DNA of 33,701 nt from Alphaproteobacteria bacterium. Lineage in GTDB: Bacteria; Pseudomonadota; Alphaproteobacteria; TMED109. The stretch lies in assembly GCA_022819905.1 (NCBI GenBank), contig JAJEGJ010000016.1, forward strand, positions 1 through 33,701, in the 5' to 3' direction. The stretch's first letter is position 1; each line of letters starts with the position of its first letter. The position numbers and the translations under genes were made by a program. This document shows, piece by piece, positions 534 to 28,507 of the stretch. Below the pieces are notes generated by a model. It did not search any database. It saw only the letters and a program-made list of their open reading frames with translations, and was not told the DNA's origin.

Positions 534-557
534 ATGACGTTGCGGAACGGAATGTGA
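534..557 (+). CDS. Possible 7-codon leader peptide coupled to the methyltransferase
   Basis: AGGAGG at 525-530 is correctly placed for the ATG at 534, not for the GTG at 554. That ATG opens a seven-codon frame (MTLRNGM) whose TGA at 555-557 overlaps the methyltransferase GTG at 554-556. In the methyltransferase frame there is no other start codon between the TAG at 524 and the GTG. This arrangement suggests translational coupling or re-initiation. Alternatively, ATG 534 was the ancestral methyltransferase start and a one-base change shifted the frame. Confidence 0.35.
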   Translation: MTLRNGM

Positions 558-2113
558 AACACCCGCTTATCACGGAGAAGCTGTTAAGGCTTGGTACAGG
601 CGGACGGCCTCGCGTACTGGACCTTTTTGCTGGTTGCGGGGGACTCTCTCTGGGATTTCTGACAGCTGGCTTCGAGCTCGCGGCTGCCGTCGAGAACGAC
701 TCGACCACTGCAGTAACCTACGGCAGCAACTTCCACCCGGATGACGATCGGCACCGGCTGCATCGCGACATAATGTCGACGACTCCTGGCCGGCTCGTGA
801 GGGCGCTGGGTCTGGGCAGAATGGCAGAAGCGTTCGACGTGGTCATCGGCGGTCCGCCATGTCAGGCGTTCGCGCGTGTCGGCAGGTCGAAACTACGGGA
901 GATCGAGGCGCATCCCGAGGCATTCCGCCACGATCCGCGCGCAGCGCTCTACGGTCCTTACTTGAGGTTCGTGAAGTCTTGCAAACCGATCGCGATCTTG
1001 ATGGAGAACGTGCCGGATGCGATGAACTTCGGTGGACACAATGTGCCCGAGGAAGTCTGCGAAGTGTTGGATGATCTGGGCTACGCGTGCGCGTACACGC
1101 TGTTGAACGCGGCGTTCTACGGCGTCCCGCAGACACGGGAGCGAATGTTCCTGATCGCGTACCACCGCCAGATAGGCGAAAGGGTATCGTTCCCGAAACC
1201 GACCCATTGGATCGATCTGCCGCGCGGATACGAGGGCTCGCGGCAGGTCGCTCTGAAACTGCTGTCAAATGGTGATCTATTCTCAGAAGCGCATCACTAC
1301 GTGACCCCTCCTGAAGCCTCCGACAACTTGGCACCGGCCGTGTCGGCCAAAGAGGCCATTGGCGATCTGCCGAAGATTCCAGCGCGAACACTGATGTGCA
1401 AAGGTGTGCTGAGGCGCGGCGCGCGCCGTTTTGACAGCCTGCGGCGCTACGACGGTAGGCGGCCTGTCTCGGACTATGCGAGGACCATGAAAAACTGGCC
1501 CGGGTTCGAGGCGAGCGAGGGCGTCTACGATCACGTGATTCGTTACCTCCCTAGGGACTACGCGCTGTTCGCGCGCATGAAGGAAGGCGATCAATATCCG
1601 GAAGCACACAGGCTTGCTTTGAAGATGTTCCACGAGAAGCTCGCGGAGATTGCGAACAAGGACGCGCACTTGGAGCCTGGGGCGCGGAAGTACGAAGAGG
1701 TAAAGCAAAAAATCGTGCCTCCCTACGATTCGACGAAATTCCCGAACAAGTGGCGGAAGATTGCCAAGGACCAGCCGGTGCGAACGATCATGGCGCACTT
1801 GAGCAAGGACGGATACAGCCACATACATTACGACAGCGCGCAGGCGCGGACGATCTCAGTGAGGGAGGCGGCAAGGCTCCAGTCGTTCCCCGACGGGTTC
1901 GTCTTTGCGGGAGCTATGAATAAGGCATTCCAGCAGATTGGCAACGCGGTGCCTCCGTTGCTGGCGCAGGCGATCGCAGCTGACATGAGCGCGACCATGC
2001 GGTCAGCGGCTGGCGCAGCCGTAGTGGCGCGCGCTAGAACCGCTACCGCAGTAAGAAAGACGCTGGATGCTCCTGCCGGTCGGGCGGCAATCGATACGGG
2101 TGTTGAAGCCTGA
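554..2113 (+). CDS. DNA C5-cytosine methyltransferase (DrmMII-like position)
   Basis: The 519-residue protein transfers a methyl group from S-adenosylmethionine to carbon 5 of cytosine. Conserved blocks appear in the usual order: motif I DLFAGCGGLSLGF near residue 24, motif IV GGPPCQ with the catalytic Cys near residue 101, motif VI MENVP, motif VIII QTRERMFLIA, a variable target-recognition region, then motif IX/X ending QIGNAVPPLLAQAIA near residue 465. The GTG start is the only start open in frame after a TAG at 524. It heads the operon with a vsr remnant, an SF1 helicase, drmA and drmB, which matches the self-marking enzyme (DrmMII) of class 2 DISARM. The recognition sequence cannot be read from the sequence. 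All motifs are intact. Confidence 0.92.
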   Translation: MKHPLITEKLLRLGTGGRPRVLDLFAGCGGLSLGFLTAGFELAAAVENDSTTAVTYGSNFHPDDDRHRLHRDIMSTTPGRLVRALGLGRMAEAFDVVIGGPPCQAFARVGRSKLREIEAHPEAFRHDPRAALYGPYLRFVKSCKPIAILMENVPDAMNFGGHNVPEEVCEVLDDLGYACAYTLLNAAFYGVPQTRERMFLIAYHRQIGERVSFPKPTHWIDLPRGYEGSRQVALKLLSNGDLFSEAHHYVTPPEASDNLAPAVSAKEAIGDLPKIPARTLMCKGVLRRGARRFDSLRRYDGRRPVSDYARTMKNWPGFEASEGVYDHVIRYLPRDYALFARMKEGDQYPEAHRLALKMFHEKLAEIANKDAHLEPGARKYEEVKQKIVPPYDSTKFPNKWRKIAKDQPVRTIMAHLSKDGYSHIHYDSAQARTISVREAARLQSFPDGFVFAGAMNKAFQQIGNAVPPLLAQAIAADMSATMRSAAGAAVVARARTATAVRKTLDAPAGRAAIDTGVEA

Positions 2114-2122
2114 CGAAGGGCC

Positions 2123-2661
2123 ATGGTGACGGCAGACTGGCGATCAAACGACGTACTGACTCCGCCCCAGCGCAGGCTGGTGATGAGTCGGATCAGAGGC
2201 AAGAACTGCAAGCCGGAGTTGGTTGTGCGTGGCGGGCTTCACACGCGAGGTCTGCGCTACCGGCTCGAAGTATTCAACCTGTCCGGCAGCCCGGTCATGG
2301 TGTTCCTCGGTTCACGGCGACGGTGTTTGTGCACGGGTGCTAGCGGCGCGGTCTCGGATGTTTGCTGTTCAGGTGGCCGAAGGGCGGCGCAGAGTTCTGG
2401 CAACTCAAGATCAAGCGGATTGTGGAACGGAACCGCGCCGTGCTGAGGGAAAAAGGGACGGATGGCTGGCGCGTGTTGGATGTCCAGAAACGCGCATTCC
2501 GAGGCAAGTACCGGGGAGAACTAGCAGACGTGGTGAGCGAAGGGGAGACAAATGTGCGGGTCGGCCAAGCGTATTTCGTCAAAATCGCTGAGAAGGACGT
2601 TGGTGTGGCGCGTGTTGGGCGCGCCGATTCGGCAGTGGGAGTTCCGGGGGATGCGGGTTGA
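2123..2661 (+). pseudogene. Decayed Vsr (very short patch repair) endonuclease
   Basis: Vsr nicks T:G mismatches left by deamination of 5-methylcytosine and usually travels with a C5 methyltransferase, as here. The first part reads like Vsr: an N-terminal PPQRRLVMSRIRGKN block and a KPELVVRGGLHTRGLRYRL block. Where the family has a GRPD-type motif with a catalytic Asp, this copy has GSPV. One T appears to be missing just after (about 2300-2306), which moves the rest one frame back. In that frame the family's VHGCFWH motif reads VHGC followed by TAG (about 2340), with W and H changed to R. The downstream C-terminal block (RWPKGGAEFWQLK, then GWRVL) is still recognisable. A lost catalytic residue, a frameshift and a stop make this non-functional. 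Its end overlaps the next gene's ATG as TGATG. Confidence 0.85.
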
Positions 2662-4772
2662 TGGCGCAGGTCGAGGTGCGGATTCTCAGGAAGGCAAAGG
2701 AAGTCGAGCGGGTAACGCGTCCTGTCCATTTCGTGGACGGTAAGCCCTACGTGAAGTACAAGCGGCGTCTCTGGCCGCTGGCCAACGGCGGCGAGGTTCG
2801 GCTGGATGGGGCGGAGGCTCTAGGGGCTGAAGAGGAAGACGGGCACGACCCGGTCTCGGAATTCCAGGTGGTACCGCCCGCCCTTATTGAGTGGGACGAG
2901 TCGCAGCGGAGGGTCATCGACGCCCCGGCCGAAGAACGTCTGTTGGTTGGTGCCGGTCCTGGGACTGGGAAGACAGCAGTGGCCTGCGGGCGGGTGTCGC
3001 AACTCATTGACCAATATGGCCTGGAACCGAGTCGCGTGTGGCTGATCAGCTTCACCCGGACTGCTGTGCAGGAGATTCGCGACCGGATTGCTGCGTACTT
3101 GGAGGACGCATCTGCGGCCTATGCGGTGAAGATTGCGACGCTTGACTCGCACGCCTGGACCATACATTCGGGTTTCGACGAGGGAACCCGTTTACTGGGT
3201 TCCTACGAGGAGAACATCGGGCATGTTCTGCAGCTCGTCCGGCAGGATGTGGACGTCGCCGATTACCTCGAAGGCGTCGAGCACCTGATCGTCGACGAAG
3301 CGCAGGACATAGTTGGAACTAGGGCGGATTTGGTGGTCGAGCTGGTTCGGAAGATGTCCTCCTCTTGCGGTGTGACGGTGTTTGCAGACGAAGCCCAAGC
3401 GATCTACGGATTCGCTGACGCAAAGGAAATCCGTTCCGACCAGATTGCGGACGCTCCTCAACCCCCGTTTCCGTCGAGGATCCGAAGTGGCACCGCAGGT
3501 CCGTTCCGGGAGTGCGAACTAACGGAGGTGCATCGAACCAGTTCTTCTCAGTTGCTGACGATCTTTTCCGACACGCGGCGCAAGGTGCTAACCGCGGCCG
3601 GCAAGGGAGAGGACAAGCTTGCCGAGATCAGGGATCAGATCATCAGCCTCGCGCACGGAGAGGCTCCGGCCATCGACGGAGCGGCGCTCGCGAAGCTGGA
3701 GGACACGTTTGTCCTGTACCGCAGGCGGTCCGACGTGCTTCTGACGTCGTCAATTTTGGCGCAGAACGGCGTGGCGCATCGCGTTCGAATGTCCGGACTT
3801 CCCGTGTGTCTCGCGCCATGGATCGGCGCCGCGCTGTCGGGGCACGCCAACGCAGACCTGGACCGCGAGAGATTCATGGAGTTGTGGGATGAGAACGTGC
3901 GGGGTACGGCTTTGGCAACGTGCGGGGCGGGCGAGGCGTGGACCCGTCTTGTGCGCATCGGCGGACGCACGGATGCGGTGCTGGACATGCGGCTGCTGCG
4001 TCAGCGCCTCGGCCGCAAGCAGCCACCGGCCGAAGTCTGCGATACCGCGGTAGGTGTCGGGGGTCCCATTGTGGGGACGATACACGCATCGAAGGGACGC
4101 GAGGCTGACACCGTCCACCTCATGCTGCCGGATACGCAGGGTGCGCACCTTGACCAGGATGAAGAAGCCCGAGTGGTATTCGTCGGCGCGACACGAGGAC
4201 GCGCGAAGCTGCTTGTCGGCCGTGGGTACCGGCAGCATGCCGGGCGCGTCGATGTTTCAGGCAGGGTGTTCTGTCTCCAGACGCGACGGGACTCGCCGCG
4301 CGCCCAGTTCGAGATAGGTCGCGACACCGACATCGATGCGGAAGGGTTGGCGGGTCGGCACCTGTTCGCGAGCACCGAGGCGGTTTGGGAAGGCCAACGC
4401 CGGATCCTCGGGATCGCCGATGAGCCTGCGGCACTTGTCGCCGTCTGCGATCGCGACGTCGATTTCCTATACCGGCTGAGTGAGGATGGCTCGGGACGGT
4501 GCCTAGCGGTGCTGTCCCGAAGCGTCAATAACGATCTGTTCTTCGTCGCGAATGCGCTTCAGGCCAAACTCGGCGGGGGCCGTCGGCGTCCACCCGATGT
4601 GCTCCGCCACCTGCATGTGCGCGGCGTGCGCACGGTTGTCCTGCCCCCGGATGCGCCCGAGGGGGAGCTGCTTCATGAGCCGTGGAGAAGTAGTGGGATC
4701 ATGATGGCGCCTCTGGTGCTGGGCTACACCACGTCGTTCTTCCCCCTCATCGGCAAGCGCCAGGGGCGGTGA
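2661..4772 (+). CDS. UvrD/Rep-type SF1 helicase of the DISARM-like operon
   Basis: The protein has 703 residues from ATG 2661 (an in-frame TTG sits one codon earlier). The first ~90 residues are a separate N-terminal segment. Then come SF1A helicase motifs: Walker A GAGPGTGKT (97-105), the Q/Ia region with SFTRTAVQEIRDR, Walker B DEAQD (212-216), FADEAQAIYGFAD (III), a VHRTSSS element, GTIHASKGREADTV (about 472-485, motif V) and VVFVGATRGRAKL (about 504, motif VI). It probably translocates on or unwinds DNA with ATP. No nuclease motif is obvious; the last ~150 residues have no family I recognise. It lies between the vsr relic and drmA, the stop being 1 nt before drmA's ATG, roughly where class 2 DISARM carries drmE. 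I cannot say whether it is a DrmE homologue. Confidence 0.85.
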   Translation: MAQVEVRILRKAKEVERVTRPVHFVDGKPYVKYKRRLWPLANGGEVRLDGAEALGAEEEDGHDPVSEFQVVPPALIEWDESQRRVIDAPAEERLLVGAGPGTGKTAVACGRVSQLIDQYGLEPSRVWLISFTRTAVQEIRDRIAAYLEDASAAYAVKIATLDSHAWTIHSGFDEGTRLLGSYEENIGHVLQLVRQDVDVADYLEGVEHLIVDEAQDIVGTRADLVVELVRKMSSSCGVTVFADEAQAIYGFADAKEIRSDQIADAPQPPFPSRIRSGTAGPFRECELTEVHRTSSSQLLTIFSDTRRKVLTAAGKGEDKLAEIRDQIISLAHGEAPAIDGAALAKLEDTFVLYRRRSDVLLTSSILAQNGVAHRVRMSGLPVCLAPWIGAALSGHANADLDRERFMELWDENVRGTALATCGAGEAWTRLVRIGGRTDAVLDMRLLRQRLGRKQPPAEVCDTAVGVGGPIVGTIHASKGREADTVHLMLPDTQGAHLDQDEEARVVFVGATRGRAKLLVGRGYRQHAGRVDVSGRVFCLQTRRDSPRAQFEIGRDTDIDAEGLAGRHLFASTEAVWEGQRRILGIADEPAALVAVCDRDVDFLYRLSEDGSGRCLAVLSRSVNNDLFFVANALQAKLGGGRRRPPDVLRHLHVRGVRTVVLPPDAPEGELLHEPWRSSGIMMAPLVLGYTTSFFPLIGKRQGR

Positions 4773-4773
4773 G

Positions 4774-7700
4774 ATGCGGGAGCTGCTGCTCGACCGGCTG
4801 GAACAGGATTTAATTGGTCCTCACGCTGATGCCGAAGTGCTGATGTCGCGGCCGTCGGACGTGTATCTCACCGGCATGCTATGGCCGCGTGAGAGCCGTA
4901 TGGGTGCGGAAGAGGATGAACGTTTCGGTATCGCCGGGGCGGGCCAGAGCGAGACCGACAGCGGAGGCGAGGAGGAGGAAATTTCCCTTACCGGTCTGTT
5001 CCGACCGTGTTCGGCCGGGGTGTCTTTCGCAGCGCGCGGGGAAGCCGGCAAGAGACTCGGCATCACGGTTCGCTTCGCTACGTACGAGCCGGTTCGGAGT
5101 TCTGAGGTTGAGGGAAGGAATCGAGCGGAAGCCGCAGCGATAGAGGATGGCCTTGGTGGAATTACGCGGACTGAGTGGCGACGCCGGGCGCACAACATCG
5201 TTTTGGAAAACGTCGCTCTGGAAGATGGATCGTCGTTCGTCGATCTGGAGCCATATGGCGCCCCCCCGAAGGTCAGGCTGCATGTGCGCACGGCGCCGTG
5301 GACGACTGGTCTGCTGGCCACCGTCACGCTTCTGAATGAGGCCGAACCGGACGAGGATGCTGGTCGCGAAGGGACCGAACGACTCACGCTGTTCCAGACG
5401 CGGATCGAGATACGGCCCGGAGAAGGGACTGTACTGGTCGCGAGGCCTTCGCGACGAGCGGTGCTCGATGACGATGACCGCTCGGCGGCGCTGCTCTACC
5501 GGAATGCACGTGAGTTCGCAAACGGGCATACCTGTTCGGCAGAATGGGAGAGCGTTGCCGATTCGGCGACGGCGGACATGGTGGCGACCGCATGGCTGCC
5601 GGCAACGGTTGTGCCCGCAACCCGAGCAACCGGCCACGAGGTGTTTGAATCGCTTCGTCGGGACGGGCCAACCAGCCCGTTGTCGGCCCGATGGCTCGCG
5701 ACGGCAGATCCACTCGAACTGGCCGAAGGTCTCCAACGATTGCCCGCGGTCTACGCGACTTGGCTGGGCGAAAGGGAAACAGATGCAGCTGACCTTCCCG
5801 ACGAGTTCGTGCAACAGGCGGAAAAGAACATCGCCGTGTGCCTAGAGGTCTATGCGCGCATGGCGGACGGTGCGCGTCGGATAGCTGGAGACGCGACGAT
5901 GGCTCGAGCGTTCCGGCTCGCGAATCTCGCGATTGATCTGCAGCACGGCTGGGATTATGAAAAGCAAATGCGGGGGCCATTTGAATGGCGGCCGTTCCAG
6001 CTTGGGTTCATCCTGCTGGCAGCGGCGTCGGTGGCGGATCGAAATCACCCCGAACGCGAGATCATGGATCTTCTGTGGTTTCCAACGGGTGGTGGGAAGA
6101 CGGAGGCATACCTCGCGCTGATCGCTTTTCTCGCGTTCTACCGGCGCCTTGCGGCACCCGATGGCCCGGACGCCGGCGATGGCGTTGCGGCGGTTATCCG
6201 CTACACGCTGCGACTGTTGACCACGCAGCAGTTCACTCGTGCTTCCGCGGTGGTGCTTGCTTGCGAAGCGATCCGTCGTGGACGCATCCGCGAGGCTGAG
6301 GCGTCCCGAAAAGAGCTTGGGGATACGCCGTTCTCGATCGGCCTCTGGGTTGGCGGGGAGGCGGTTCCCAACCGTGTGACCGACGCCGCGGCGGCGCTTG
6401 GCGGAGCACCGGACCAGCCGACTCCCAAACAGCTTGTGCAATGTCCTGCATGTCGGAACCCGCTGTCCTGGGAACACGACGAAGTGGCGGATGCCATCCA
6501 CACGCGATGCGAGAGTCGTGAGTGCGTGTTGATCCATCCGGAGGCACCCCTGCCGGTATGGACGGTCGACGAGGACGTGTATCGGGCGAGACCGACGTTG
6601 ATCATCGGGACGGTCGACAAGTTCGCTCAGATCGTGCGGCGTAAGGAGGTGAACGGCCTGTTCGGTCTCGACAATGGCCGACCGCCCGACCTGATCCTCC
6701 AGGACGAACTACACCTGATCTCGGGTCCCTTGGGTACGGTTGCGGGTCTTTACGAGGCGGCAATCGACCGGTTGTTCGAGTCGGGTGGAGCGCGCCCGAA
6801 GATCATCGGGTCTACGGCGACGATCCGGCGCGCCTCAGAACAGGTTGCATCTCTGTTCGACCGGGCCACTAGGCAGTTCCCGCCGTCCTGCATCGATTCG
6901 GACGATTCCGGGTTCGCTGTCGTGGACCATGATGCACCAGGGCGGGTCTACGCCGGTGTCACGACAGCCGGGCGTTCAGCGAAGTTTACGCTTCAGGCGG
7001 TGGCAGCCTCCCTTCTGCAGTCGGCTTTCGGCGGCACGACGGACGACAATGCGAGGGACCCCTATTGGACGCTAGTTTCGTATTTCAACTCGCTGCGGGA
7101 GCTTGGCGGTGCACTTGTGCTGATGCAGGATGACGTGAACGACAGTCTTTCTCTGCTCGCGGAACGCCGAGACGAGACAGCGCGCCAGCCGGAGTTAATC
7201 GAAGAGCTGACCTCCAGACGGACCCAGGCTGACGTCAGGGACATGCTGCACCGCCTTTCCATTCGCGCGGATGGTCGGGGCGCCCTTGATGTTGTGCTGG
7301 CCACGAACATGCTGAGCGTCGGAGTTGACATCCCCCGGCTCGGCCTGATGCTAGTCAATGGCCAGCCGAAGGGGATCGCCGAGTACATTCAGGCGACGAG
7401 CCGTGTAGGTCGGGGCAATGTCCCGGGGCTGGTGGTCGCCGTGCTCAACAACGCCAAGGCCCGGGACCGATCGCACTATGAGAGCTTCGCGAGCTTTCAC
7501 GAGGCGCTCTACCGGGATGTGGAACCGACCAGCGTGACACCGTTCGCGTCGAGGGCTCGGGACCGGGCGTTGCATGCCGTTTTGGTGGCGCTGATAAGGC
7601 ATCTTGTTCCCGGAATGCTGGACAGACCGGAGTTGGACGACGATGCCGTCGATGGAGCAAGACGCCTCATTGCCGATGTGGTGCGGAGGGCGAAGGCAAT

Positions 7701-7956
7701 TGACCCGCAGGAGGTCGCGGTGGCGCGTGAACTGGAGAGGCTCCTCGATACCTGGGAGCTCCGTGCTCCGGGAAGTTACTGGACCCGCCAAGCCCGCAGT
7801 TCCCTGCTTCAAGATGCAGAACGAGCAGCAACACTGCGGGCAATGGGCCGAATGCCGGGAGAAGCCTGGCCGACACTGAACAACATGCGCAGCGTCGAGG
7901 CTGGTACGCGATTCCGGCTTGCCGAAAGGCTGCGCGAACCGGACTCGGGAGGTTAG
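4774..7956 (+). CDS. drmA: DISARM helicase DrmA
   Basis: The protein is 1060 residues, within the usual range for DrmA, the SF2 helicase that with DrmB forms the DISARM core on DNA. A long N-terminal region (about 1-400) without clear enzymatic motifs precedes the helicase. Walker A is PTGGGKTEAY (from about residue 437), motif II is the unusual DELH (644-647), motif III is GSTATI, a Cys cluster (CPAC then C..R.C) lies near 560-595, and the C-terminal RecA fold shows SVGVDIPRLGLM (from about 848) and IQATSRVGRG (about 872-881). The DELH form of motif II with PTGGGKTE is characteristic of the DrmA group. The ATG lies 1 nt after the upstream stop and drmB follows 3 nt after the stop, so the genes are co-transcribed. 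It is intact, but its partner is interrupted. Confidence 0.9.
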   Translation: MRELLLDRLEQDLIGPHADAEVLMSRPSDVYLTGMLWPRESRMGAEEDERFGIAGAGQSETDSGGEEEEISLTGLFRPCSAGVSFAARGEAGKRLGITVRFATYEPVRSSEVEGRNRAEAAAIEDGLGGITRTEWRRRAHNIVLENVALEDGSSFVDLEPYGAPPKVRLHVRTAPWTTGLLATVTLLNEAEPDEDAGREGTERLTLFQTRIEIRPGEGTVLVARPSRRAVLDDDDRSAALLYRNAREFANGHTCSAEWESVADSATADMVATAWLPATVVPATRATGHEVFESLRRDGPTSPLSARWLATADPLELAEGLQRLPAVYATWLGERETDAADLPDEFVQQAEKNIAVCLEVYARMADGARRIAGDATMARAFRLANLAIDLQHGWDYEKQMRGPFEWRPFQLGFILLAAASVADRNHPEREIMDLLWFPTGGGKTEAYLALIAFLAFYRRLAAPDGPDAGDGVAAVIRYTLRLLTTQQFTRASAVVLACEAIRRGRIREAEASRKELGDTPFSIGLWVGGEAVPNRVTDAAAALGGAPDQPTPKQLVQCPACRNPLSWEHDEVADAIHTRCESRECVLIHPEAPLPVWTVDEDVYRARPTLIIGTVDKFAQIVRRKEVNGLFGLDNGRPPDLILQDELHLISGPLGTVAGLYEAAIDRLFESGGARPKIIGSTATIRRASEQVASLFDRATRQFPPSCIDSDDSGFAVVDHDAPGRVYAGVTTAGRSAKFTLQAVAASLLQSAFGGTTDDNARDPYWTLVSYFNSLRELGGALVLMQDDVNDSLSLLAERRDETARQPELIEELTSRRTQADVRDMLHRLSIRADGRGALDVVLATNMLSVGVDIPRLGLMLVNGQPKGIAEYIQATSRVGRGNVPGLVVAVLNNAKARDRSHYESFASFHEALYRDVEPTSVTPFASRARDRALHAVLVALIRHLVPGMLDRPELDDDAVDGARRLIADVVRRAKAIDPQEVAVARELERLLDTWELRAPGSYWTRQARSSLLQDAERAATLRAMGRMPGEAWPTLNNMRSVEAGTRFRLAERLREPDSGG

Positions 7957-7959
7957 CGG

Positions 7960-8415
7960 GTGGCGAACAATCGACTTGGTGAATTGCGAAGAAGCGCCGT
8001 CGTGATGACATTTGGACCGGGTTCGGTCGTCGACTTTCGGGCGGACGACGCCCCAGTGTCCGCCGTCGCGGCAGGATTGGAGGAATGGGACAGGTCATTC
8101 CCGCCCGCGGGCCTCGCCAACCCGCAGAGGATCAGTGAACCAAGGTTGCAGAGAAGGCTCTCGGTGGATGGTTTCCGTCTTCCACCAGTTATCGATGAGA
8201 ACTCGCGGGACAGGGACGGTAATCCCGACCGTCGGACGCTCGTCGCCGCACGGTTTCCAGGGTGGCTGCAGTGCCCGCAGTGCGACCGTCTGGCCCGGGC
8301 GGGCCGCTGGTCCCAGGACCCGGGACGGGCGTACCGCTATTGCGCAAGTTGCACACGCCGGGCGCCCGGTGAGCGCAAGGTGTTCGCGGTACCTGTCCGC
8401 TTCGTGATGGCCTGT
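7960..8415 (+). pseudogene. drmB: DrmB (DUF1998), 5' part, cut by IS21-family element
   Basis: This is the first 152 codons of DrmB, from GTG 7960 with GGGAGG upstream. It begins MANNRLGELRRSAVVMTFGP and contains a zinc-binding pair CPQC...CASC near residues 105-130, then ends at RFVMAC. In intact homologues this segment continues into a GH(L/I)DDFPW block, which is found on the far side of the insertion, at 10543. After 8415 the frame enters the IS tip and ends at 8511, giving a 183-residue truncated product with about 31 foreign residues. That peptide lacks the DUF1998 domain and is unlikely to support DrmA. I saw no other lesion in this part. Confidence 0.9.
8411..8415. repeat. Left target-site duplication (CCTGT)
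   Basis: CCTGT at 8411-8415 is repeated at 10532-10536, immediately outside both ends of the IS21-family element. A 5-bp duplication is within the range this family produces. The duplicated bases are part of the drmB codons for Ala-Cys. Confidence 0.85.
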
Positions 8416-8519
8416 TGTCAATGGCAACTTAAAACTGCTCACTTTTGGCAACTTAAAATTGCACACTTTTCCCGGAGGGTCGCCTCGGGTTCCGCAGTGA
8501 CCCTCGCTTGAAGGCTGTT

Positions 8520-8574
8520 CGCGTTGGGGGCCGGACGCAGGGCGCGGAGCGACCGGAGACCGGCCCCCAACGCG
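8520..8574. terminator. Strong 15-bp-stem hairpin after istB
   Basis: CGCGTTGGGGGCCGG (8520-8534) is perfectly complementary to CCGGCCCCCAACGCG (8560-8574), with 25 bases between. It lies 17 bp beyond the istB stop, inside the IS. No T-run follows on either strand, so it is not a classical intrinsic terminator. It may stop transcription in or out of the element or block read-through from drmB. Confidence 0.5.
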
Positions 8575-8591
8575 TCGCGAAGCGGGCCGGA

Positions 8592-9395
8592 TCACTTCGC
8601 CTGCCTCCGGCGGGTGGACTCCTCCGGCCGTTCGGACCGCAGCAGGTCCCGGTGCTCCCGCATCCGGTAGCTGTTGCCGCGGATGTTGACGATGTGGCAG
8701 TGGTGGAGGAGCCGGTCGATCAGCGCCGCCGCCATCACGTCGTCGCCGAGCACGCCGCCCCACTCCTCGAAGCCCTTGTTCGAGGTGAGCACCGTGGAGG
8801 CGCGCTCGTGGCGGGCGTTGATCAGCTGGAAGAACAGGATCGCGCCGTCCTGGGTGACCGGCAGGTAGCCGATCTCGTCGACCACCAGCAGTGCGGGATG
8901 CGTCAGCACCTTGAGGCGGCGCGCCAGGTTGCCCGACGTCTTCGCCTCCATGAGCGACTCGACCAGGTCCGCGAGGGTGCCGTAGTAGACGCGGCGTCCG
9001 GACTCGGCGGCGGCGATCGCCAGGCTGATGGCCAAGTGCGTCTTGCCGACGCCCGGGGGGCCGAGCAGGACCACGTTCTCGGCGCGGTCGACGAAGCCGA
9101 GCTCATGCAGGCTCTCGACCTGCTCGCGCTTGATGCTCGGCTGGAAGGCGAAGTCGAACTCGGCCAGGGTCTTCACCGCCGGCAGCCGCGAGGAGCGCAT
9201 GGCGGAGTCCAGGCGGCGGTTGTTGCGCAGCACGATCTGGGCGTCCAGCAGCCTCTCGACCGCCTCGCTGGCGGTGACGGTCCCGCCGTCGGCCTGCGCC
9301 AGGATGTCGTCCGCCACCTCAAGCGCGCCGGGCATCTTGAGGTCGGCCAGCATCGCCCGCACCCGGTCGCGCCGGTTCCTGGCCGCGGCCTTCAC
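8592..9395 (-). CDS. istB: IS21-family ATP-binding helper protein IstB
   Basis: The 267-residue protein is the AAA+ regulator that helps the IstA transposase select and engage target DNA. It shows Walker A GPPGVGKTHLA near residue 108, Walker B LLVVDEIGYLP near residue 170, a SNKGFEEWG segment near 210, and a C-terminal RLLHHCHIVNIRGNSYR block typical of the family. The GTG start (9395-9393) overlaps the istA stop as GTGA, the usual coupled arrangement. Length is normal for the family. A longer frame continues upstream in the same phase but is only the shadow of istA. Confidence 0.92.
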   Translation of the reverse strand: MKAAARNRRDRVRAMLADLKMPGALEVADDILAQADGGTVTASEAVERLLDAQIVLRNNRRLDSAMRSSRLPAVKTLAEFDFAFQPSIKREQVESLHELGFVDRAENVVLLGPPGVGKTHLAISLAIAAAESGRRVYYGTLADLVESLMEAKTSGNLARRLKVLTHPALLVVDEIGYLPVTQDGAILFFQLINARHERASTVLTSNKGFEEWGGVLGDDVMAAALIDRLLHHCHIVNIRGNSYRMREHRDLLRSERPEESTRRRQAK

Positions 9396-10411
9396 CGCGC
9401 CACCTCCGCGTAGTCGGCCAGCGAGCGCTTCTGCACCGGCACGGCGGGCCGCGCCGGCGCTGCCGGCGCCGCGGACTGCGTGGCGCCGAGGCGTCGGTAG
9501 GGCCGCCCCGCGAGCGGGCCGAGCGCACCCCTCTCGTCGCGTTCGAAGCGGTCCACCGGACGTTCGCCCGTGGTGCCGTGCACGCGCACGTTCGCGGTGC
9601 CGTCCAGCCAACGCGCCGCCTGCCCGTTGAGGTCCTCGTCGCTGGCGAACGTGCGTCCGTAGAAGAAGTTCTCCCGCAGGTAGCGGATCGGCCGCTCCAC
9701 CTTCCCCTTCGTCCGGGCCCGGTACGGCCGGCACGAGCGCGGCATGAACCCCCAGTGCGCCGCGAAGCGCAGGAACTCCGGGTTGAGGATCAGCTCCCCG
9801 CCGCCGGTGCGGTCGTCCGAGAGCACCACCGCGCGCATCTGGTCGAACAGCATCTCCCGGGGCACCCCGCCGAAGCGCGCGAACGCGCCCTCCAGCCCAT
9901 CGAACAGAACGCGCATCGTCTGCCGACGGTAGAACCGCAGCCACAGCAGCCTCGAGTGGCCCAGCACCACCAGCAGCGCGTGCCGCCGGCCCCACGGCAG
10001 CGTGAACGTGCCGAAGTCCACCTGGCCCTGGCGGCCCGGCGGCGTCCCGAAGCGGACGGTCGGCTCGACCGGCGCGCGCGGCCGCACTTGGCCGACGTAG
10101 TCCCTCACGCGGCTGTAGCCCCCCGGGTAGCCCGCCGCGCGCACTTCGTCGAACAGGCGCTGCGCCGAGAGCTGCGGATACTCCTCCAGCCGCGCCTTGA
10201 TGATCCCCTTGTACGGATCCAGCTTCTGCTTCCTGCGTCGCCGTCGCGCCGCGCCCGCCGCGCCCGCAGCAAGGTCGCGGTCCAACTGCCCCGTGGCGAT
10301 CCAGTGGTGGATCGTCCGCCGGCTGATGCCGAAGCGCCTCGACAACTCCGCCTTGCTGATCCCCTGATCGAGATAGTGCTTCAACAACATCCTTGTCTCC
10401 CATCCATGCAT
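9392..10411 (-). CDS. istA: IS21-family transposase IstA
   Basis: The protein has 339 residues from ATG 10411; an in-frame start at 10477 would add 22 residues that do not look like the family. It has an N-terminal helix-turn-helix (GISKAELSRRFGISRRTIHHW, partly shown), a basic linker, and an rve/DDE catalytic core with Asp in GQVDFGTF, Asp in LFDQMRAVV and Glu in TKGKVERPIRY. A C-terminal domain follows. It cuts and joins the IS ends. It is somewhat short for IstA (often 390-510 residues) but the catalytic triad is complete. Confidence 0.9.
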   Translation of the reverse strand: MHGWETRMLLKHYLDQGISKAELSRRFGISRRTIHHWIATGQLDRDLAAGAAGAARRRRRKQKLDPYKGIIKARLEEYPQLSAQRLFDEVRAAGYPGGYSRVRDYVGQVRPRAPVEPTVRFGTPPGRQGQVDFGTFTLPWGRRHALLVVLGHSRLLWLRFYRRQTMRVLFDGLEGAFARFGGVPREMLFDQMRAVVLSDDRTGGGELILNPEFLRFAAHWGFMPRSCRPYRARTKGKVERPIRYLRENFFYGRTFASDEDLNGQAARWLDGTANVRVHGTTGERPVDRFERDERGALGPLAGRPYRRLGATQSAAPAAPARPAVPVQKRSLADYAEVAR

Positions 10412-10531
10412 CCGGCGCCGCCCCTTCCTTGTTGGCAAGGCCAACAGGGTGGACCCGTCCGCAACCGTCGCCAACACGAAGTGCGCAATTCCTCGTTGAC
10501 AGAAATGGGAAATTTAAAGTTGCCGCTAACA

Positions 10532-10536
10532 CCTGT
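10532..10536. repeat. Right target-site duplication (CCTGT)
   Basis: This is the second copy of the CCTGT that flanks the left IS tip at 8411-8415. Confidence 0.85.
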
Positions 10537-11922
10537 TCCCGGGGACATCTGGACGACTTCCCCTGGCACGCCTGGGTCAGACACCGGGACGAGTGCAGGA
10601 AGAAGGAGCGGGCTGACCTATACCTTCGATCGGAGCGGCCTGGACTGGGCGGGTTGATTCTCAGCTGCCCCGAGTGCAAGGCGCGCCGGAGTATGGATGG
10701 GGTGTTCAGCGCGCAGACGTGGAACGGCTTTCGATGTCGCGGCCGTAGGCCCTGGCTTGCCGGGCCGAACGAGGAGTGCGACCGTGAACCGCGGGCGCTA
10801 CAGCGAGGGGCGTCAAACCTGTACTTCCCGGTCGTGGCGTCGGCGCTCAGCATTCCCCCTTGGTCCGATGCACTTCAGGAAGCGCTAGGGGTCTACTGGA
10901 ATTCGATCGTGCGGGTGGAAGCCGCTGATCGAAAAACCTTTGTCCGCGTTCTGGCGAACGGGGATTTGGCGCCAGTCATCAACGCCCTCGGCTTGGATTT
11001 CGAGGAGCTGGTCCGGCAGATCGAGAAGCGGCTGGCACGGTACGATGACGGCGCAGTTTTGGGTATCCGCCAGGAGGAGTACCGTCAGTTCGAGTCGGGA
11101 ATCGATACAGCGGAAAGAGACTCACGAGAGTTCGAGATCCGAAACGTGCGGGTGCCGGACAGTATTCGCCCGTTCTTCGACCACATCGTGCGCGTCGTAC
11201 GGCTGCGGGAGGTGCGAGCACTTATGGGCTTTACCCGGATCAATCCGCCGGGCGATGAAGAGAGTCCAGAGGTCGCGGCGATCGCTGCCGGAAACCCGGG
11301 TTGGCTTCCGGCGGTGGAGGTCCGTGGGGAAGGGGTGTTCCTGGCATTCAACCAGATGGCGCTCGGTGCGTGGGAAGCCAACGACCGGGTGATGGAACGG
11401 GCACGGCGTGTCGACGAGGCATGGCGGATTGAGTGGCGGACGAGGCACGGAGAGCAAGAAATAGCCCGGACAATCACTCCGCGGTATCTACTGGTACATA
11501 CGTTCGCACATGCGTTAATGCGCCAACTCACGCTGGAGTGCGGGTACTCGACGGCAGCCCTTCGCGAACGGCTGTACGTGAGCGAAGGAGACGGCGGGAT
11601 GGCTGGCGTGCTGATCTACACGGCGACGTCCGACTCGGACGGGACGCTTGGTGGTTTGCAACGGCAAGGAGAAGGGTACCGGATCGAGCGGGCCGTCGAG
11701 GCGTCGGTACGGGCCATGGAATGGTGTTCTTCGGATCCCGTGTGCATTCAAGACGCGATCGGGGGCTCGGACGGACTGTCGCTGGCCGCTTGCCATGCCT
11801 GCGTTCTCGCGCCTGAGACCGCCTGTGAGGAATACAACCGGTTCCTCGACAGGGCGATGCTGGCCGGTTTGCCGGAAGCGGTAGAGGTGGGATTCTTTGC
11901 GGGGCTCCTGCGGAAGGCGTGA
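10537..11922 (+). pseudogene. drmB: DrmB (DUF1998), 3' part, downstream of the IS
   Basis: This segment supplies codons 153-613 of DrmB. It resumes with SRGHLDDFPWHAWV, exactly continuing RFVMAC from 8415. It has a CPEC motif near its start and, toward the end, the DUF1998 block YLLVHTFAHALMRQL followed by GVLIYTATSDSDGTLGGL and a Cys cluster (DPVC, ACHAC, ETAC). The frame is open upstream into the IS (a start at 10393 would read through the IS tip), so a low level of a C-terminal fragment is possible. The rest looks undamaged. The stop at 11920-11922 is 1 nt before the next ATG. DrmB normally partners DrmA, so loss of the joined protein should disable the system. Confidence 0.9.
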
Positions 11923-11923
11923 C

Positions 11924-13609
11924 ATGGCTGTAATGTGGCCACGATCGCTTCCGCCCGACGTCACCGCCAACATGCTGCGGGATACGGAGTGCGAGGTGTA
12001 CCGGCGGCTGGAGACAGTGCTGGATGATTCGTTCGTTGTCTTCTACTCGCGTCCCTGGCTTGGACTCACGGAGGATGGGGAGGAGATCGATGGCGAGTGC
12101 GACTTCGTTGTCGCGCATGCGGAATTGGGGCTGTTGACGCTTGAAGTGAAGGGCGGGGCGGTCGCATACGACCCACGTAGTGAGCGCTGGACAAGTCGCG
12201 ATCGTTGGAACGTAACGCACAACATCAAGAATCCGGTTCAACAAGCACGAAGCGCAAAGCACGAGCTCTTAAAGAAGCTCAAAGACTCCTCGCATTGGAG
12301 AGCGCGATGGATCCGAGCCCGGCATGGAGTTGTGCTGCCACATTCCTCCGCACCGCGGGGAGACCTGGGGGCGGACATGCCGCAACGCATATTCTGCTTC
12401 TCGGAGACGTTTGCGCGCGGACTCGGCGACTGGGTTCGGAGTCGATTGGGGCATGGAGGGGCCAATAAGGGAAGAACGCGCGAGCTAGGCCGGGATGGCC
12501 TTCGCGCGCTCGAGAAGGTGCTTGCGAGGCCGTTCCAGCTGCGAGTCTCGCTCGGGGCAACACTTTCGCGGGACGATGCGGAACTGGAATCGGTGACCCA
12601 ACAGCAGTTCCACATTCTGCGAGCGTTGGAGGCGGTACCACGCGCTGCGATTGCCGGCGCGGCTGGTACGGGAAAGACGGTGCTGGCGATGGAAGAAGCC
12701 AGTCGTCTAGCCGAAAAAGGGGTGCGGACGCTGTACGTCTGCTATAACCGGGGCCTTGCATGCGAAGTCCGCAGTCGTATGCGAGATGGTCTGCCTGTCG
12801 CAGTGATGACGTTCCATGAGCTCTGCGCGGAGATGGCTGGCCGAGCTGGACTCTCGCGTCCGGCTGGCGTCAGTGAGAGGCAGCTTTTCGAAGAGGTCTG
12901 GCTCGAACTTCTCATGGACGCATTCGAGCGCTTGCCTGAGGAAGTGTTTGATGCAATCGTTGTCGATGAAGGTCAGGATTTCCTGCCGTTGTGGTGGACC
13001 GCTGTCGAGTCGGGGCTGAGCACGCGCGGACTGCTTCGGATCTTCTACGACAATAACCAGCGGGTGTATGCGAGCGCAGCGAATCTACCTGGGGAGATCA
13101 AGTTGGTCCCGATTCGCCTGACCCTCAATCTGCGGAACACCAAGCGAATACATGAGCTTGTCCGGAAACACTATGAGGGTCACGAGATCGAAGCTGTCGG
13201 CCCCCATGGAGTGGAGGTGCGTTGGGTCAGTGTGGAATCTCCCGGCAAACTGCAGCGTGAGGTGTCCGATTGCGTTGCGCGTCTGCATTCAATCGAGCGC
13301 GTACCAACCGGCGATATCGGGGTGCTCGCGGCAACCGAGGCGATCGTGCAATTGCTCGCGCCGCATGACCGCCTGGGTGAATTCGCAGCGGTGCGATGCG
13401 ACCAGGAGTCAGGCGGGCGGATTGTCGTGGACACGATAAGGCGGTTTAAGGGTCTGGAACGACAGGTCGTGATCGTGGCGGCGACTGGGGAATCCGTCAC
13501 GGACAAGGAACTGCCGTATGTAGCGCTGTCCCGGGCGCGTACGCATCTAGTGGTTGCTGGCGAGCCGAGGGTGTTAGACAGGATGCGGGGTGCCGTGAGG
13601 GTAGGTTGA
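11924..13609 (+). CDS. NERD nuclease-SF1 helicase fusion
   Basis: The protein has 561 residues from ATG 11924, 1 nt after the drmB stop. The N-terminal ~150 residues match a NERD (nuclease-related) domain: Asp in GECDFVV (D60) and the E-x-K pair in LTLEVKGG (E74, K76) fit a PD-(D/E)xK site. An SF1 helicase follows with Walker A GAAGTGKT (245-252), DEGQD (348-352) as motif II, an LTLNLRNTKRIHELV motif IV-like segment, DTIRRFKGLERQVVIV and VALSRARTHLVV (V/VI). It probably cleaves or degrades DNA while translocating. In classic DISARM the last gene is the PLD-family drmC; none is seen here, so this fusion may supply the nuclease function. That substitution is inference. Confidence 0.85.
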   Translation: MAVMWPRSLPPDVTANMLRDTECEVYRRLETVLDDSFVVFYSRPWLGLTEDGEEIDGECDFVVAHAELGLLTLEVKGGAVAYDPRSERWTSRDRWNVTHNIKNPVQQARSAKHELLKKLKDSSHWRARWIRARHGVVLPHSSAPRGDLGADMPQRIFCFSETFARGLGDWVRSRLGHGGANKGRTRELGRDGLRALEKVLARPFQLRVSLGATLSRDDAELESVTQQQFHILRALEAVPRAAIAGAAGTGKTVLAMEEASRLAEKGVRTLYVCYNRGLACEVRSRMRDGLPVAVMTFHELCAEMAGRAGLSRPAGVSERQLFEEVWLELLMDAFERLPEEVFDAIVVDEGQDFLPLWWTAVESGLSTRGLLRIFYDNNQRVYASAANLPGEIKLVPIRLTLNLRNTKRIHELVRKHYEGHEIEAVGPHGVEVRWVSVESPGKLQREVSDCVARLHSIERVPTGDIGVLAATEAIVQLLAPHDRLGEFAAVRCDQESGGRIVVDTIRRFKGLERQVVIVAATGESVTDKELPYVALSRARTHLVVAGEPRVLDRMRGAVRVG

Positions 13610-13721: not shown

Positions 13722-14897
13722 GTGGATGTGATGACCATTTCGTTTTCTGACGCCGGTTCAGCCGACCTTAGGGTCGACTCGGTTTATCGGGGAGGGCGGA
13801 TGGGCAACGCGGGAGACGACCCGTTGCCGCACCTCCTGGAGGTGAGTAATGCCGGTGGATTTAGGTATCGAGGCCAGATCGATTCGTTGGAAATGGTTGT
13901 CCTCACGTCGTCAGGAAGCGAGCCGGATTGGCCGGACATGCTCGATAGGGAGACGGGGGTCTATACCTACTTCGGGGACAACAGGCGCCCTGGTCGTGAC
14001 CTTCACGACACGCCCAGGAAGGGTAACGAGCTTCTCAAACGGGTGTTCGAACTGGCGAGTTCCGGGGTCGAGGAACGCCGAAAGGTACCCCCTGTCTTCC
14101 TCTTCGCGAGCACGGGGGAATGGAGGGATGTCGTCTTCCTCGGACTGGCCGTTCCGGGCACCCTTGACGTCCGTGCCTCTGAAGACTTGGTAGCCATCTG
14201 GAGAGTTTCTGGGGGAAGGCGCTTTCAGAACTACCGGGCACGCTTCTCGGTTATCGACGCTCCAGTGGTGCCGAGGGTATGGATTGAGGATGTAGTCGCG
14301 GGCAATCCTCATACCACTAATGCGCCCGAGGCATGGTCAAGCTGGATCAGGACTGGCCAGCGTCGCATGTTGACTTCTACCAGATCGGTGGAGTTTCGAA
14401 AGAGAGAGGAGCAGATTCCCGGCGACTCGGGAGATCAGGCCACGTTGAGAAGAGTGTACGAGTACTTCAAAGAGGATTCCTACGGTTTCGAACGCTGTGC
14501 CGCAGAGCTCGCGAAGTTGCTCCTGCCTGACATTGCGGAACTCGATTTGACTCGGCCTTCGCGCGATGGTGGCCGCGATGCGATTGGGAAGCTGCGGATT
14601 GGGAGCGGGTCATCAGGGATCGTGGTCGACTTCGCGCTGGAGGCAAAGTGTTACGCCACTTCGAAAGGTGTGGGAGTTAGGGACGTGTCTCGGCTGATTT
14701 CCCGATTGCGCCATCGACAATTCGGCATTCTGGTGACAACAAGCTACGTCGGTCTGCAGGCCTACCGGGAGGTCAAAGAGGATCAACATCCAGTAATAGT
14801 CGTTTCAGGTGCGGATGTGGTAGAGCTACTGCGGGCCAACGGCTATTCGAGTGCTGAAGCCGTGCGAATGTGGCTGGAGGAAAAATTCGCGCCGTAA
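13722..14897 (+). CDS. AspBHI/MspJI-like modification-dependent restriction endonuclease
   Basis: The 391-residue protein should cleave DNA containing 5-methylcytosine (type IV/IIM). The N-terminal half has a YRGGRMGNAGDDPLPHLL-like opening, FRYRG, and a DDPLP...TYFGDNRRPGRDLHDTPRKGN region that I recognise from the AspBHI subgroup, where this half forms the modified-cytosine-binding SRA-like domain. The C-terminal half has a PD-(D/E)xK fold: D286 (GGRDA), exactly 20 residues, then E307-A-K309, the DX20EAK spacing reported for this family. An FGILVTTSYVG strand follows. GTG 13722 is preceded by GGAG at a suitable distance. It is separated from the operon by 112 bp, so it may have its own promoter. 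Specificity cannot be read off. Confidence 0.78.
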   Translation: MDVMTISFSDAGSADLRVDSVYRGGRMGNAGDDPLPHLLEVSNAGGFRYRGQIDSLEMVVLTSSGSEPDWPDMLDRETGVYTYFGDNRRPGRDLHDTPRKGNELLKRVFELASSGVEERRKVPPVFLFASTGEWRDVVFLGLAVPGTLDVRASEDLVAIWRVSGGRRFQNYRARFSVIDAPVVPRVWIEDVVAGNPHTTNAPEAWSSWIRTGQRRMLTSTRSVEFRKREEQIPGDSGDQATLRRVYEYFKEDSYGFERCAAELAKLLLPDIAELDLTRPSRDGGRDAIGKLRIGSGSSGIVVDFALEAKCYATSKGVGVRDVSRLISRLRHRQFGILVTTSYVGLQAYREVKEDQHPVIVVSGADVVELLRANGYSSAEAVRMWLEEKFAP

Positions 14898-15220: not shown

Positions 15221-18200
15221 ATGGCCTCGCGTTTCAATCCCAATGACCTAGTTCGGCGCAAGTCTCGACCCGACGCTGTCGGGGTGATTCGGGACGCTGG
15301 CTACCTTGAGGAAGCCACTGGCCAATGGATTTACCGTGTCCAGTTCGGCAACGGAGTTAGGGGTATTGCGGAAGAGGAGTTGGAGCGGCTTCCAGAGCAC
15401 ACCGATGCATGGGAGGACATAGCGGACGGAACATTTAGCGGCGCGGATGCATTCCGCACTTTGATGACCTTCGAGAGGCTGCGCCGTCCCCCTTCCCCGA
15501 TCGCTGCTTCATTCGGCTCTGCCAAAGCGGCTTTCTATCCCTTTCAATTCAAGCCACTGCTCAAGTTCCTTGAGAACCCGAGCAAACGGTTGCTGATCGC
15601 TGACGACGTTGGGCTCGGGAAGACCATTGAGGCCGGGTACATCATTCGGGAACTTAAGTCGCGGGTCAGCGTCGAGCGAACTCTACTCGTGGTCCCCTCC
15701 CGGCTCCGAACCAAGTGGCAGGCTGAAATGGACCGCCGCTTCGGAGAGCGCTTCGAGATAGTGACCGGGCGCCGCATAGCCGAGTTGCGCAAAGGTCTTG
15801 AAAGGGGCGGCGACTTGGAACGCTTCTCCTGGATTGTCTCCATCGAGTCCGCCCGTTCTTCCGACGTCGTGGAGTTTCTGGAGAACGTTCAGCCGCCTTT
15901 GGACATTGTCGTTGTCGATGAAGCGCATCGGATGCGCAACCCGGATACGCAGCAGCACCGTCTTGGCCAAGCGCTGTCCCGATGCGCGGAGAACATGATT
16001 TTTCTCACGGCCACGCCGGTTCAGACGGGTCTGGACAACCTCTTTCGGCTTCTGAACATCCTTGACGGATCAGAATTCCAGGACGGCGCCCTGTTCGAAG
16101 AGCAGTGCGCGGCCAACCGCCCAATCATCCGCGCGGCCACCGCGATTCGTTCGAATCCGCCCGCTGTGGACGCAGCCGTCAGCGCCCTGGAGGAGCTGAA
16201 GAAAAGTCCCTACACGCGCCGGTTAACGCAATCCGACTACTTTGCCAGCCTCGTGGAACGGTGTAGACGGGCCGAACCCTTGGACCGCGATGCACTCGTG
16301 GCGCTCCAGAGGGACATCAACGAGCTTTCGCTGACGGGCACCATCGTCAGCCGAACGCGGAAGGTGGAGGTCATTCCCGACAGAACGTTGCGCGCACCCA
16401 ATGTCGTCGCCGTTCGATTCACTGCGACCGAACGCGCCTTCTACGACTCGGTCGCGGAGCTTTGCAGCGTGATTCGTCCTGATCTCTCCGGATGGGGTCG
16501 TGCGCTCGCCGCGCTGCAGGCTTTCCGCGCAACCGCAAGCTGTATACCCGCTGCGGCCAGGGGATTCCGGGACAAGCTTGCCCGCGGCGGCTCCATCGTG
16601 GAGGGGTTGGCTCGAGACTTCGACGATGGCCTATACGACAGGGACGGTGGCGCACTTCCCCACTCAGAGAGCGTTCGCGAGAAACTCGACGAGGTCACGT
16701 CGACCTTGGAGCGACTCACGGAAGAGGACACGAAGTACGAAAGGCTCAAGGACGCCCTGCACGAAATTTGGCGGGAGGACCGCGACGCCGGACGGTCTCC
16801 ACGCAAGGTGGTCCTGTTCGCGTTCTTTAAGCCGACGCTCGCCTACCTCAATAAACGTCTCGGCAACGACCGAATCCAGTCCCGTCTGATCAACGGCGAC
16901 GTGCCGATTCCCCAGCGTGAGGCCCGCATTGACGAATTCGCGAGCGATCCGGACATTCGCCTCCTGCTCTCGTCCGAGGTTGGCAGCGAAGGGCTAGACC
17001 TGCAGTTCGCCTCCGTCGTAGTGAACTACGACCTGCCTTGGAATCCCATGGTGGTGGAGCAGCGCATCGGGCGCATTGACCGTATCGGTCAAGCAACGCC
17101 CAGAATCGTTATCCTGAACCTAGTCGCCTCGGAGACCATAGAGGAGCGCATACTCTATCGGCTCTATGACCGAATCGGCATATTCCGGGAGTCCATCGGC
17201 GAGATCGAGCCAATACTGGGCGAGTCCGTTGAAAAGCTCGCAGCGGACGCCATACGCGGCGGCTTGACCGAAGAGGAACAGCGATCACAGGCAGATGACT
17301 CGGCGGACGCTTGGAGCGACGAACGCCTGAAGGCCGAAGGTCTCGCTAACGAGACCGATAGTCTCATGGCTGCTGACCAATCCTTCCTCGACGAGATCGA
17401 GGGATTGATCGGCCGGCGCAAAGTCCCCTCCAGCGCTGAACTCCACGCCTATGTGGGCGGTTACCTTGCCGCCAACTTCGCTGGCAGCAGATTTCCCCAA
17501 ACGTTGGTCTCGCACGTCGCGGACATCCGGACGCCATCAGATGTCGGTCGGCTCGTCTTGCAGGCGTTCCCCACTGATCGGGAAGCCGGTCGTTTCGGTC
17601 GAATGCTGGAAGCGGGTGCGGTCAGGGCGACCTTCGATCAGGATGCTGCGCTCAAGCATGCCAACGCCGAGCTGATCCACTCCCGCCACCCCTTCGTCCG
17701 GATGGTCATGACGGAAGGAGACCGCGACCGAAGCACAATGCCGCGTTCGTTTGCTCTCGCCGTGAAGGCCGCTGATCTTCCCGACTCAGCCAAAGTGCGG
17801 TCTGGTGATCTCATGTTCGAGATACATCTTTTCGATACCGGCGGCATAAGACCCCGCATCAGTCTCGTCCCGCTGTTTCTCAGCGAGCAAGAGAGTTTTC
17901 TGCCCGACGCTGAATCCGAGGACTTGCTGCTGTCCATGCTCGACCATTCGTCGTCCTTGGACCCCGCCCCCCACCTCGATTCACAGTCGGTGAGCCGAGT
18001 GTCGCAGCGCCTTCGTGATCAACTAGGTTCGCGCCGGTCGACAGTCGTTTTGACGGAACGCGAGTTGAACGCCGTGCGTACCAGCCGACTGAAGACCACC
18101 CTTGCGGTGGCTTTGGACCACCGTGTCAGCGAGGCCGAGACGCGCCTCGGCTCACTTCAAGACAAAGGGGCCGCACCATTCGCCATCAAGATGGCTCGGG

Positions 18201-23167: not shown

Positions 23168-23281
23168 GCACCCCCCTCAAGTCGCCGGGGAGATTGCGAG
23201 ATTGATACGGTGAAGTCAATGCGACCCGGTCATTCCCGAACCATTCCCTCGCCTTGAATCGAGGAAGCCCCACAGAAAGCG

Positions 23282-23310: not shown

Positions 23311-23335
23311 CAATCACAGCGTTGGTGTTGGACAG

Positions 23336-27077: not shown

Positions 27078-27086
27078 ACGTAGCTC

Positions 27087-28506: not shown

Positions 28507-28507
28507 G

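Follow-up and report, generated by a model that had tools for sequence, protein, structure and literature searches.

DISARM (defense island system associated with restriction-modification) is described in two classes, which require DrmC together with either DrmD and DrmMI (class 1) or DrmE and DrmMII (class 2) (PADLOC definition, PMC9252829). The DrmA-DrmB pair (DrmAB) is ATP dependent and binds unmodified DNA with a 5' overhang; no essential DISARM nuclease has been identified, and DrmC is dispensable and often missing (PMC9142583). Here, we analyze a DISARM-like operon on a 33,701-nucleotide (nt) contig of an Alphaproteobacteria bacterium (JAJEGJ010000016.1; assembly GCA_022819905.1). The window, as we call the stretch that was analyzed, is this whole 33.7-kb contig, one of 123 in the assembly. 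Our results make it probable that the operon represents a conserved DISARM variant in decayed form, with a core of a UvrD-type superfamily 1 (SF1) helicase, DrmA, DrmB, and a NERD nuclease fused to a second SF1 helicase (NERD-SF1) and with a C5 methyltransferase and Vsr as add-ons, and that it works by the mechanism proposed below. By its core features, DrmA and a separate DrmB (split by an insertion sequence in the window, intact in relatives), the system is a DISARM variant that is neither class 1 nor class 2. This variant is apparently widespread yet undescribed.

An earlier note, made from the sequence alone, placed the operon at 554 to 13609. Its gene calls hold, as does the tight spacing (by our count 1 to 9 nt), but defense genes continue past 13609 (an AspBHI-type restriction endonuclease and a DrmD-like SNF2 gene). 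The features of the operon and the matches that identify them are as follows.

554 to 2113, plus strand: C5 cytosine DNA methyltransferase, DrmMII/type II-like (PF00145, 8.4e-57; TIGR00675 dcm, 1.9e-49; PADLOC MTase_II, 4e-79, and DrmMII, 2.7e-73)
2123 to 2657, plus strand: vsr pseudogene, frameshifted, catalytic motifs lost (three-frame translation; Vsr profile 55 bits, fragment only)
2661 to 4772, plus strand: UvrD/PcrA/GajB-like SF1 helicase, at the position that drmE occupies in DrmE-type loci (PF00580, 6e-24; fold model)
4774 to 7956, plus strand: drmA, YprA-family SF2 helicase, short form (NF038325, 1.9e-268; PADLOC DrmA, 2.5e-201; PDB 7s9v, 1.9e-141)
7960 to 8415, plus strand: drmB, N-terminal piece (NF038324, 3.5e-21)
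8416 to 10531, minus strand: IS21-family insertion (istA, istB) inside drmB (IstB PF01695, 1.1e-80; TGT...ACA ends; CCTGT direct repeat)
10532 to 11922, plus strand: drmB, C-terminal piece with MZB/DUF1998 zinc domain (NF038324, 3.1e-130; PF09369, 2.3e-9)
11924 to 13609, plus strand: NERD PD-(D/E)xK nuclease fused to an SF1 helicase (PF08378, 4.7e-7; UvrD_C_2, 9e-8; PADLOC RTasNERD-Hel, 1e-55)

The gaps between genes are 9 nt (methyltransferase-vsr), 1 nt (UvrD-drmA), 3 nt (drmA-drmB), and 1 nt (drmB-NERD), so a single transcription unit is likely. DrmA, which the note had called clear, is matched by its family profile (894 bits, slightly below the cut-off of 950) and by the solved structure of Serratia DrmA, and a C5 methyltransferase does head the operon, the plain MTase_II profile slightly outscoring DrmMII in PADLOC. 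DrmB, also called clear, is recognizable, but its gene lies in two pieces on either side of the IS21-family element, which is bordered by the 5-bp repeat CCTGT at 8411 to 8415 and 10532 to 10536. The vsr gene indeed stands between methyltransferase and helicase, but as a pseudogene: three-frame translation places a frameshift at about 2290 to 2310, V replaces the conserved aspartate of PDxVF, and a stop replaces the FWHRH motif. Because the insertion splits drmB and vsr is frameshifted, the copy in the window is probably nonfunctional, a dead operon with intact copies in relatives. C5 methyltransferases often have Vsr as a partner, and its presence here thus needs no special explanation.

A tblastn search with the UvrD-type helicase in 61 relatives gave, apart from the window, only general UvrD matches; therefore, a DrmA alignment was used as bait. 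It yielded 80 genome loci (the best 80 of more than 589 matches) and 18 loci on viral contigs. Family profiles were run on all stop-to-stop open reading frames (ORFs) of 111 loci, 107 of which hold a full-length DrmA. We found that in chains of adjacent codirectional genes, the UvrD gene lies directly upstream of DrmA-DrmB in 70 of these 107 loci. The full order UvrD-DrmA-DrmB-NERD, contiguous and codirectional, recurs in 24 loci besides the window, a count that includes L039 with its two UvrD copies; the window is the 25th if its split drmB is allowed. These 24 loci span at least six phyla, the taxa with this order including Alpha- and Gammaproteobacteria, Balneolia, Bryobacterales, Dehalococcoidia, Bacillota, and Gastranaerophilales, and the distance from drmB to NERD ranges from −12 to +30 nt. 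A tblastn search of plasmids with the UvrD protein found the identical order in Rhizobium rhizogenes, R. ruizarguesonis, Azospirillum, and Shinella. DrmA-DrmB-NERD occurs in three further loci (L021, L041, and L087), with UvrD elsewhere or lost at the contig end. The search that the note had proposed, for drmA-drmB beside both a NERD-SF1 fusion and a UvrD-type gene, thus returned a conserved order.

The core proteins have also diverged together. Among the 24 intact loci, pairwise protein distances correlated with a Mantel r of 0.92 to 0.96 for five of the six protein pairs (UvrD-DrmB being left out), and none of 2,000 permutations was as high; the permutations are uncorrected for shared descent, and shared descent of the whole gene set is the very point tested. 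In a DrmA tree built with FastTree, the window DrmA falls in a mainly proteobacterial clade of 29 members (support 0.96). A NERD tail follows in 21 of the 25 evaluable loci of this clade, the sequence of the other 4 members ending at or just past drmB. Among the clade members without a NERD tail, L103 carries DrmC instead, and L031, L032, and L108 carry neither. Most members of a Bacillota/Gastranaerophilales clade also have NERD; a large actinobacterial clade has UvrD and no adjacent NERD. No sampled locus has both NERD and DrmC (0/48; DrmC occurs in 8 of the 59 NERD-free loci, Fisher p = 0.007) or both UvrD and DrmE (0/71; DrmE occurs in 9 of the 36 UvrD-free loci, p = 3e-5), relatedness being ignored in both tests. 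The placement of NERD directly after drmB across phyla, in codivergence with the other core proteins, is not the chance event that the note had named as its possible refutation.

Could the operon nevertheless be an ordinary class 2 DISARM with a diverged DrmE and a chance NERD neighbor? The DrmMII-type methyltransferase at its head, the short-form DrmA (NF038325), and the UvrD gene's position, which is that of drmE in L068 and L106, all fit such a reading. We compared the UvrD family with a DrmE profile built from L068, L106, L107, L099, L076, and L088; in an NCBIfam check of these DrmE proteins, L068, L107, and L088 scored above the cut-off and L099 slightly below it. The profile-profile comparison found no similarity (probability 0.1%), whereas the UvrD family matched the SF1 part of NERD-SF1 at 99.7%. 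The model of the UvrD-type protein (predicted local distance difference test [pLDDT], 88.5) folds like UvrD/PcrA/Rep over residues 72 to 539, with a best match at Z 31.6, root mean square deviation (RMSD) 3.1, and 345 aligned residues (residues 75 to 527); these fold searches tested chiefly the helicase regions and leave about 50 residues at the N terminus and 165 at the C terminus of the protein unassigned. SF1 motifs I, II, and VI are near-invariant in the UvrD-type protein and the NERD-SF1 homologues. DrmE (NF038316) and DrmC (NF038319) gave no match anywhere in the window's genome at E 0.01, and the NERD adjacency is repeated in 24 other loci. Collectively, these data largely refute a diverged class 2 system, which we regard as highly improbable. 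The comparison with DrmE that the note had asked for thus shows the 703-residue helicase to be no DrmE homologue but a UvrD/PcrA-type SF1 helicase by sequence and fold. The "slot near drmE" that it gave this gene is right in that the gene lies directly upstream of drmA, but there is no drmE nearby and the gene stands in the drmE slot itself.

The last operon gene is, as the note had it, a NERD-SF1 fusion and not a phospholipase D (PLD)-type drmC. Residues D60, E74, K76, and Q107 of the NERD domain are present in the window and kept in 49 to 50 of 50 homologues; in the homologue alignment, Walker A, Walker B, and motif VI of the SF1 part are near-invariant. The NERD-SF1 model (pLDDT, 88.2; predicted template modeling score, 0.69) contains an SF1 core resembling that of UvrD. 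Human Schlafen 11 (SLFN11) is among the best profile and fold matches, its helicase part matching at 3e-21 by profile; full-length Schlafen alignments have an RMSD of about 14 Å, and the two are comparable in the helicase part only. From its preserved catalytic motifs, its place at the drmC position, and its lack of co-occurrence with DrmC, we infer that NERD-SF1 may be the DNA-degrading effector.

NERD-SF1 might instead belong to a second, independent defense unit, a stand-alone Nhi-like or reverse transcriptase-associated nuclease-helicase merely cotranscribed with a self-sufficient DrmA-DrmB (with UvrD). In PADLOC, the NERD protein is in fact best matched by a reverse transcriptase-associated NERD-helicase, NERD-SF1 relatives occur without DrmAB and actinobacterial UvrD-DrmA-DrmB loci without NERD, and DrmC was dispensable in the DISARM tested (PMC9142583). 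NERD-SF1 was also taken as the starting point. Of the 12 plasmid records (some near-duplicates) found to carry a relative of NERD-SF1 in full length, 7 place it inside a UvrD-DrmA-DrmB-NERD operon and 1 beside degraded DrmA/DrmB. Two place it behind a ~2,060- to 2,090-amino-acid (aa) helicase, DpdJ/YprA-like in the one examined, with a pair of genes for a DrmD-like and a ~1,000-aa protein close by; in another record it follows a DUF3883 protein that gave a weak match of sacsin type, and in the last it is close to a type III-B CRISPR locus. Across 385 genomes from the class to which the host belongs, 8 have strong DrmA matches and 7 strong NERD matches, the window's own included, and the two genes are neighbors in G124 and G186. 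Both surveys indicate that NERD-SF1 prefers YprA-family helicases and is not a random neighbor. Near-zero spacing and correlated divergence over phyla likewise speak against two separate units, as does the tie of NERD to DrmAB in three arrangements and to the DpdJ/YprA-like helicase, which indicates a coupling with the YprA-like family. Two independent units thus appear unlikely.

In the mechanism that we propose for the single UvrD-DrmA-DrmB-NERD system, DrmA-DrmB would, as in characterized DISARM, load on unmodified phage DNA with a free 5' single-stranded end and translocate; it would recognize and open the phage DNA. The UvrD-type protein would be a second motor that helps open or remodel this DNA. 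NERD-SF1, as a helicase-coupled nuclease, would degrade it and so take on the role proposed for the PLD nuclease DrmC. Self DNA would carry the marks of the C5 methyltransferase, and Vsr would repair T:G mismatches arising from deamination of 5-methylcytosine. Nhi and Hna are examples of nuclease-helicases that phage single-stranded DNA-binding protein (SSB) switches on (PMC10732053), so SSB-coated single-stranded DNA is a plausible second cue. A different role, in which NERD-SF1 would be an abortive backup nuclease that attacks host DNA once DrmAB has failed, would follow proposals that the NERD domains of BREX PglW and DndF are suicidal coeffectors (PMC12839542, PMC10853773). Here, however, NERD shares its protein with a motor domain and keeps to the drmC position, and the related ARMADA works without cell death (PMC12458937); we consider an abortive role decidedly unlikely.

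Several observations weigh against the proposed system as a whole. NERD also occupies other slots, lying directly upstream of DrmA in 17 loci, in 6 of which a DrmE-family gene precedes it (DrmE-NERD-DrmA-DrmB), and it occurs outside DISARM; NERD may thus be a general mobile effector. The actinobacterial UvrD-DrmA-DrmB loci without adjacent NERD mean that NERD is not essential to every UvrD-type DISARM. A C5 methyltransferase (METHYLTRANSFERASE) lies near only 19 of 28 UvrD+NERD loci and Vsr near only 13 of 28, on either strand and either side, so self-marking by C5 methylation is not universal. The permutation and Fisher tests count related loci as independent.

Two other arrangements were seen. 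Seven actinobacterial loci (L053, L070, L077, L080, L084, L090, and L095) have NERD-SF1, DrmA, DrmB, and then a short SF1 protein without a NERD domain. In an Hsp70-UvrD-DrmA-DrmB operon, a reverse transcriptase (PF00078, 703 aa; L063:14993-17104) stands in the place of NERD-SF1 after drmB.

A conserved nuclease-helicase in the drmC position of many DrmC-less operons is a concrete candidate for the means by which DISARM destroys DNA. Two common detection rules, one requiring DrmC and the other DrmE or DrmD, miss a large DrmA-DrmB group, so DISARM counts based on them are probably too low.

Downstream of the operon lie two further genes of note.

13722 to 14897: AspBHI-type restriction endonuclease (PF18062, Mrr_cat; Pfam match)
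15221 to 18322, plus strand: DrmD-like SNF2 helicase, possible accessory (PADLOC DrmD, 3.2e-161; NF038317, 347 bits, below the 610 cut-off)

The AspBHI-type gene, a modification-dependent restriction gene, directly follows an operon with its own C5 methyltransferase, and self-toxicity is possible unless the methylated contexts differ. It sets the DrmD-like gene, ~1.6 kb downstream, apart from the operon. After the DrmD-like gene comes a 463-aa protein (18347 to 19738) with an actin/Hsp70-like look (N-terminal LGVDYGTSRSKLVI) and no Pfam match. More defense genes follow at 20945 to 29569: a McrB-like AAA protein, an Eco57I-like methyltransferase at 23336 paired with a BsuBI/PstI-type endonuclease, an IetA-like AAA protein, and a YhgA-like transposase. 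A second DISARM-like locus in the same genome (L137, G000:C16:28000-47900) holds, on the minus strand and in this order, a sacsin-type-related helicase piece, DrmA, DrmB, an SF1 protein, and NERD-SF1.

The modules around related operons vary. A ~1,560-aa protein combining a sacsin-type GHKL ATPase and an SF2 helicase (NF047352; PADLOC TmtA-like N terminus) lies directly upstream of UvrD-DrmA-DrmB in about 30 loci among L042 to L094, mostly Actinomycetota; in relatives from Bacillota and Gastranaerophilales, UvrD has clear Hsp70 genes upstream. A divergent pair of the DrmD-like SNF2 gene and the gene for a ~1,000-aa protein (no Pfam or NCBIfam match) flanks alphaproteobacterial systems (L019, L027, L028, L029, L032, L034, L039, L104, and L108; also L146 and L148) and is also found beside the giant DpdJ/YprA-like helicase and NERD. 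A C5 methyltransferase-McrB-McrC-Vsr cassette occurs twice among the UvrD+NERD loci (L016 and L038). We suggest tentatively, as a reading somewhat short of even odds, that UvrD-DrmA-DrmB is a distinct, widespread DISARM branch with NERD-SF1 as effector in most phyla, coupled to interchangeable upstream modules that may sense infection. Chaperone-type ATPases would be among these modules, which in Actinomycetota and a few others would be a sacsin/Hsp90-like GHKL-helicase, in Bacillota and Gastranaerophilales Hsp70, and in Alphaproteobacteria DrmD with the ~1,000-aa protein.

Compared with known systems, the operon resembles class 2 DISARM in its separate DrmA and DrmB, in that order, its C5 methyltransferase (a DrmMII match), and its short-form DrmA, but it has a UvrD-type SF1 helicase for DrmE, which is absent genome-wide, and NERD-SF1 for the PLD nuclease DrmC, to which NF038319 gave no match in the window or genome. 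It shares DrmA and DrmB with class 1. As for DrmD, the SNF2 gene downstream of the operon is DrmD-like but scores below the NF038317 cut-off and is set apart by the AspBHI-type gene; genes of this kind also adjoin many relatives. The window, however, lacks DrmC and gave no match to DrmMI, the PglX-like adenine methyltransferase, and its DrmA (1,060 aa) is without the long N-terminal part of Serratia DrmA (1,325 aa). The note's observation that neither published set matches in full therefore stands, and its proposal of a separate DISARM subtype is well supported by order conservation, codivergence, and the non-DrmE helicase. We rejected as the same system a "DISARM-like cassette" beside McrBC, the legend of which lists SWI2/SNF2 and PglX and names no UvrD or NERD (PMC11090510).

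Two systems of Bell et al. (2025) also have components in common with the operon. ARMADA type II likewise combines a YprA-family helicase, a GajB-like UvrD helicase, and a PD-(D/E)xK nuclease, but there the nuclease is a Vsr-type domain at the C terminus of the YprA helicase, whereas here it is NERD-SF1. ARMADA features a PglX-like methyltransferase, a BrxHII-like helicase, and a YprA helicase fused to its DUF1998 part, and type II has an ArmD with a RelE-like domain; here DrmA and DrmB are separate genes, and the window has no PglX-like gene. TALON also unites a YprA-family helicase and a NERD nuclease in one operon, but it includes genes for TPR-CSD and a TATA-binding protein as well as a fused RNase H domain; none of these was seen in the window (for the two genes, in Pfam scans of large ORFs in the operon and flank). 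The UvrD-DrmA-DrmB-NERD set is absent from the main-text parts of Bell et al. that were covered, and a prior mention is possible. Finally, other NERD-SF1 nuclease-helicases (PADLOC RTasNERD-Hel and C3a187) share the order of NERD then SF1, and the helicase part matches the Schlafen-type SF1 helicase SLFN11. Such proteins work on their own or have partners, among them a reverse transcriptase, whereas here the gene is fixed after drmB.

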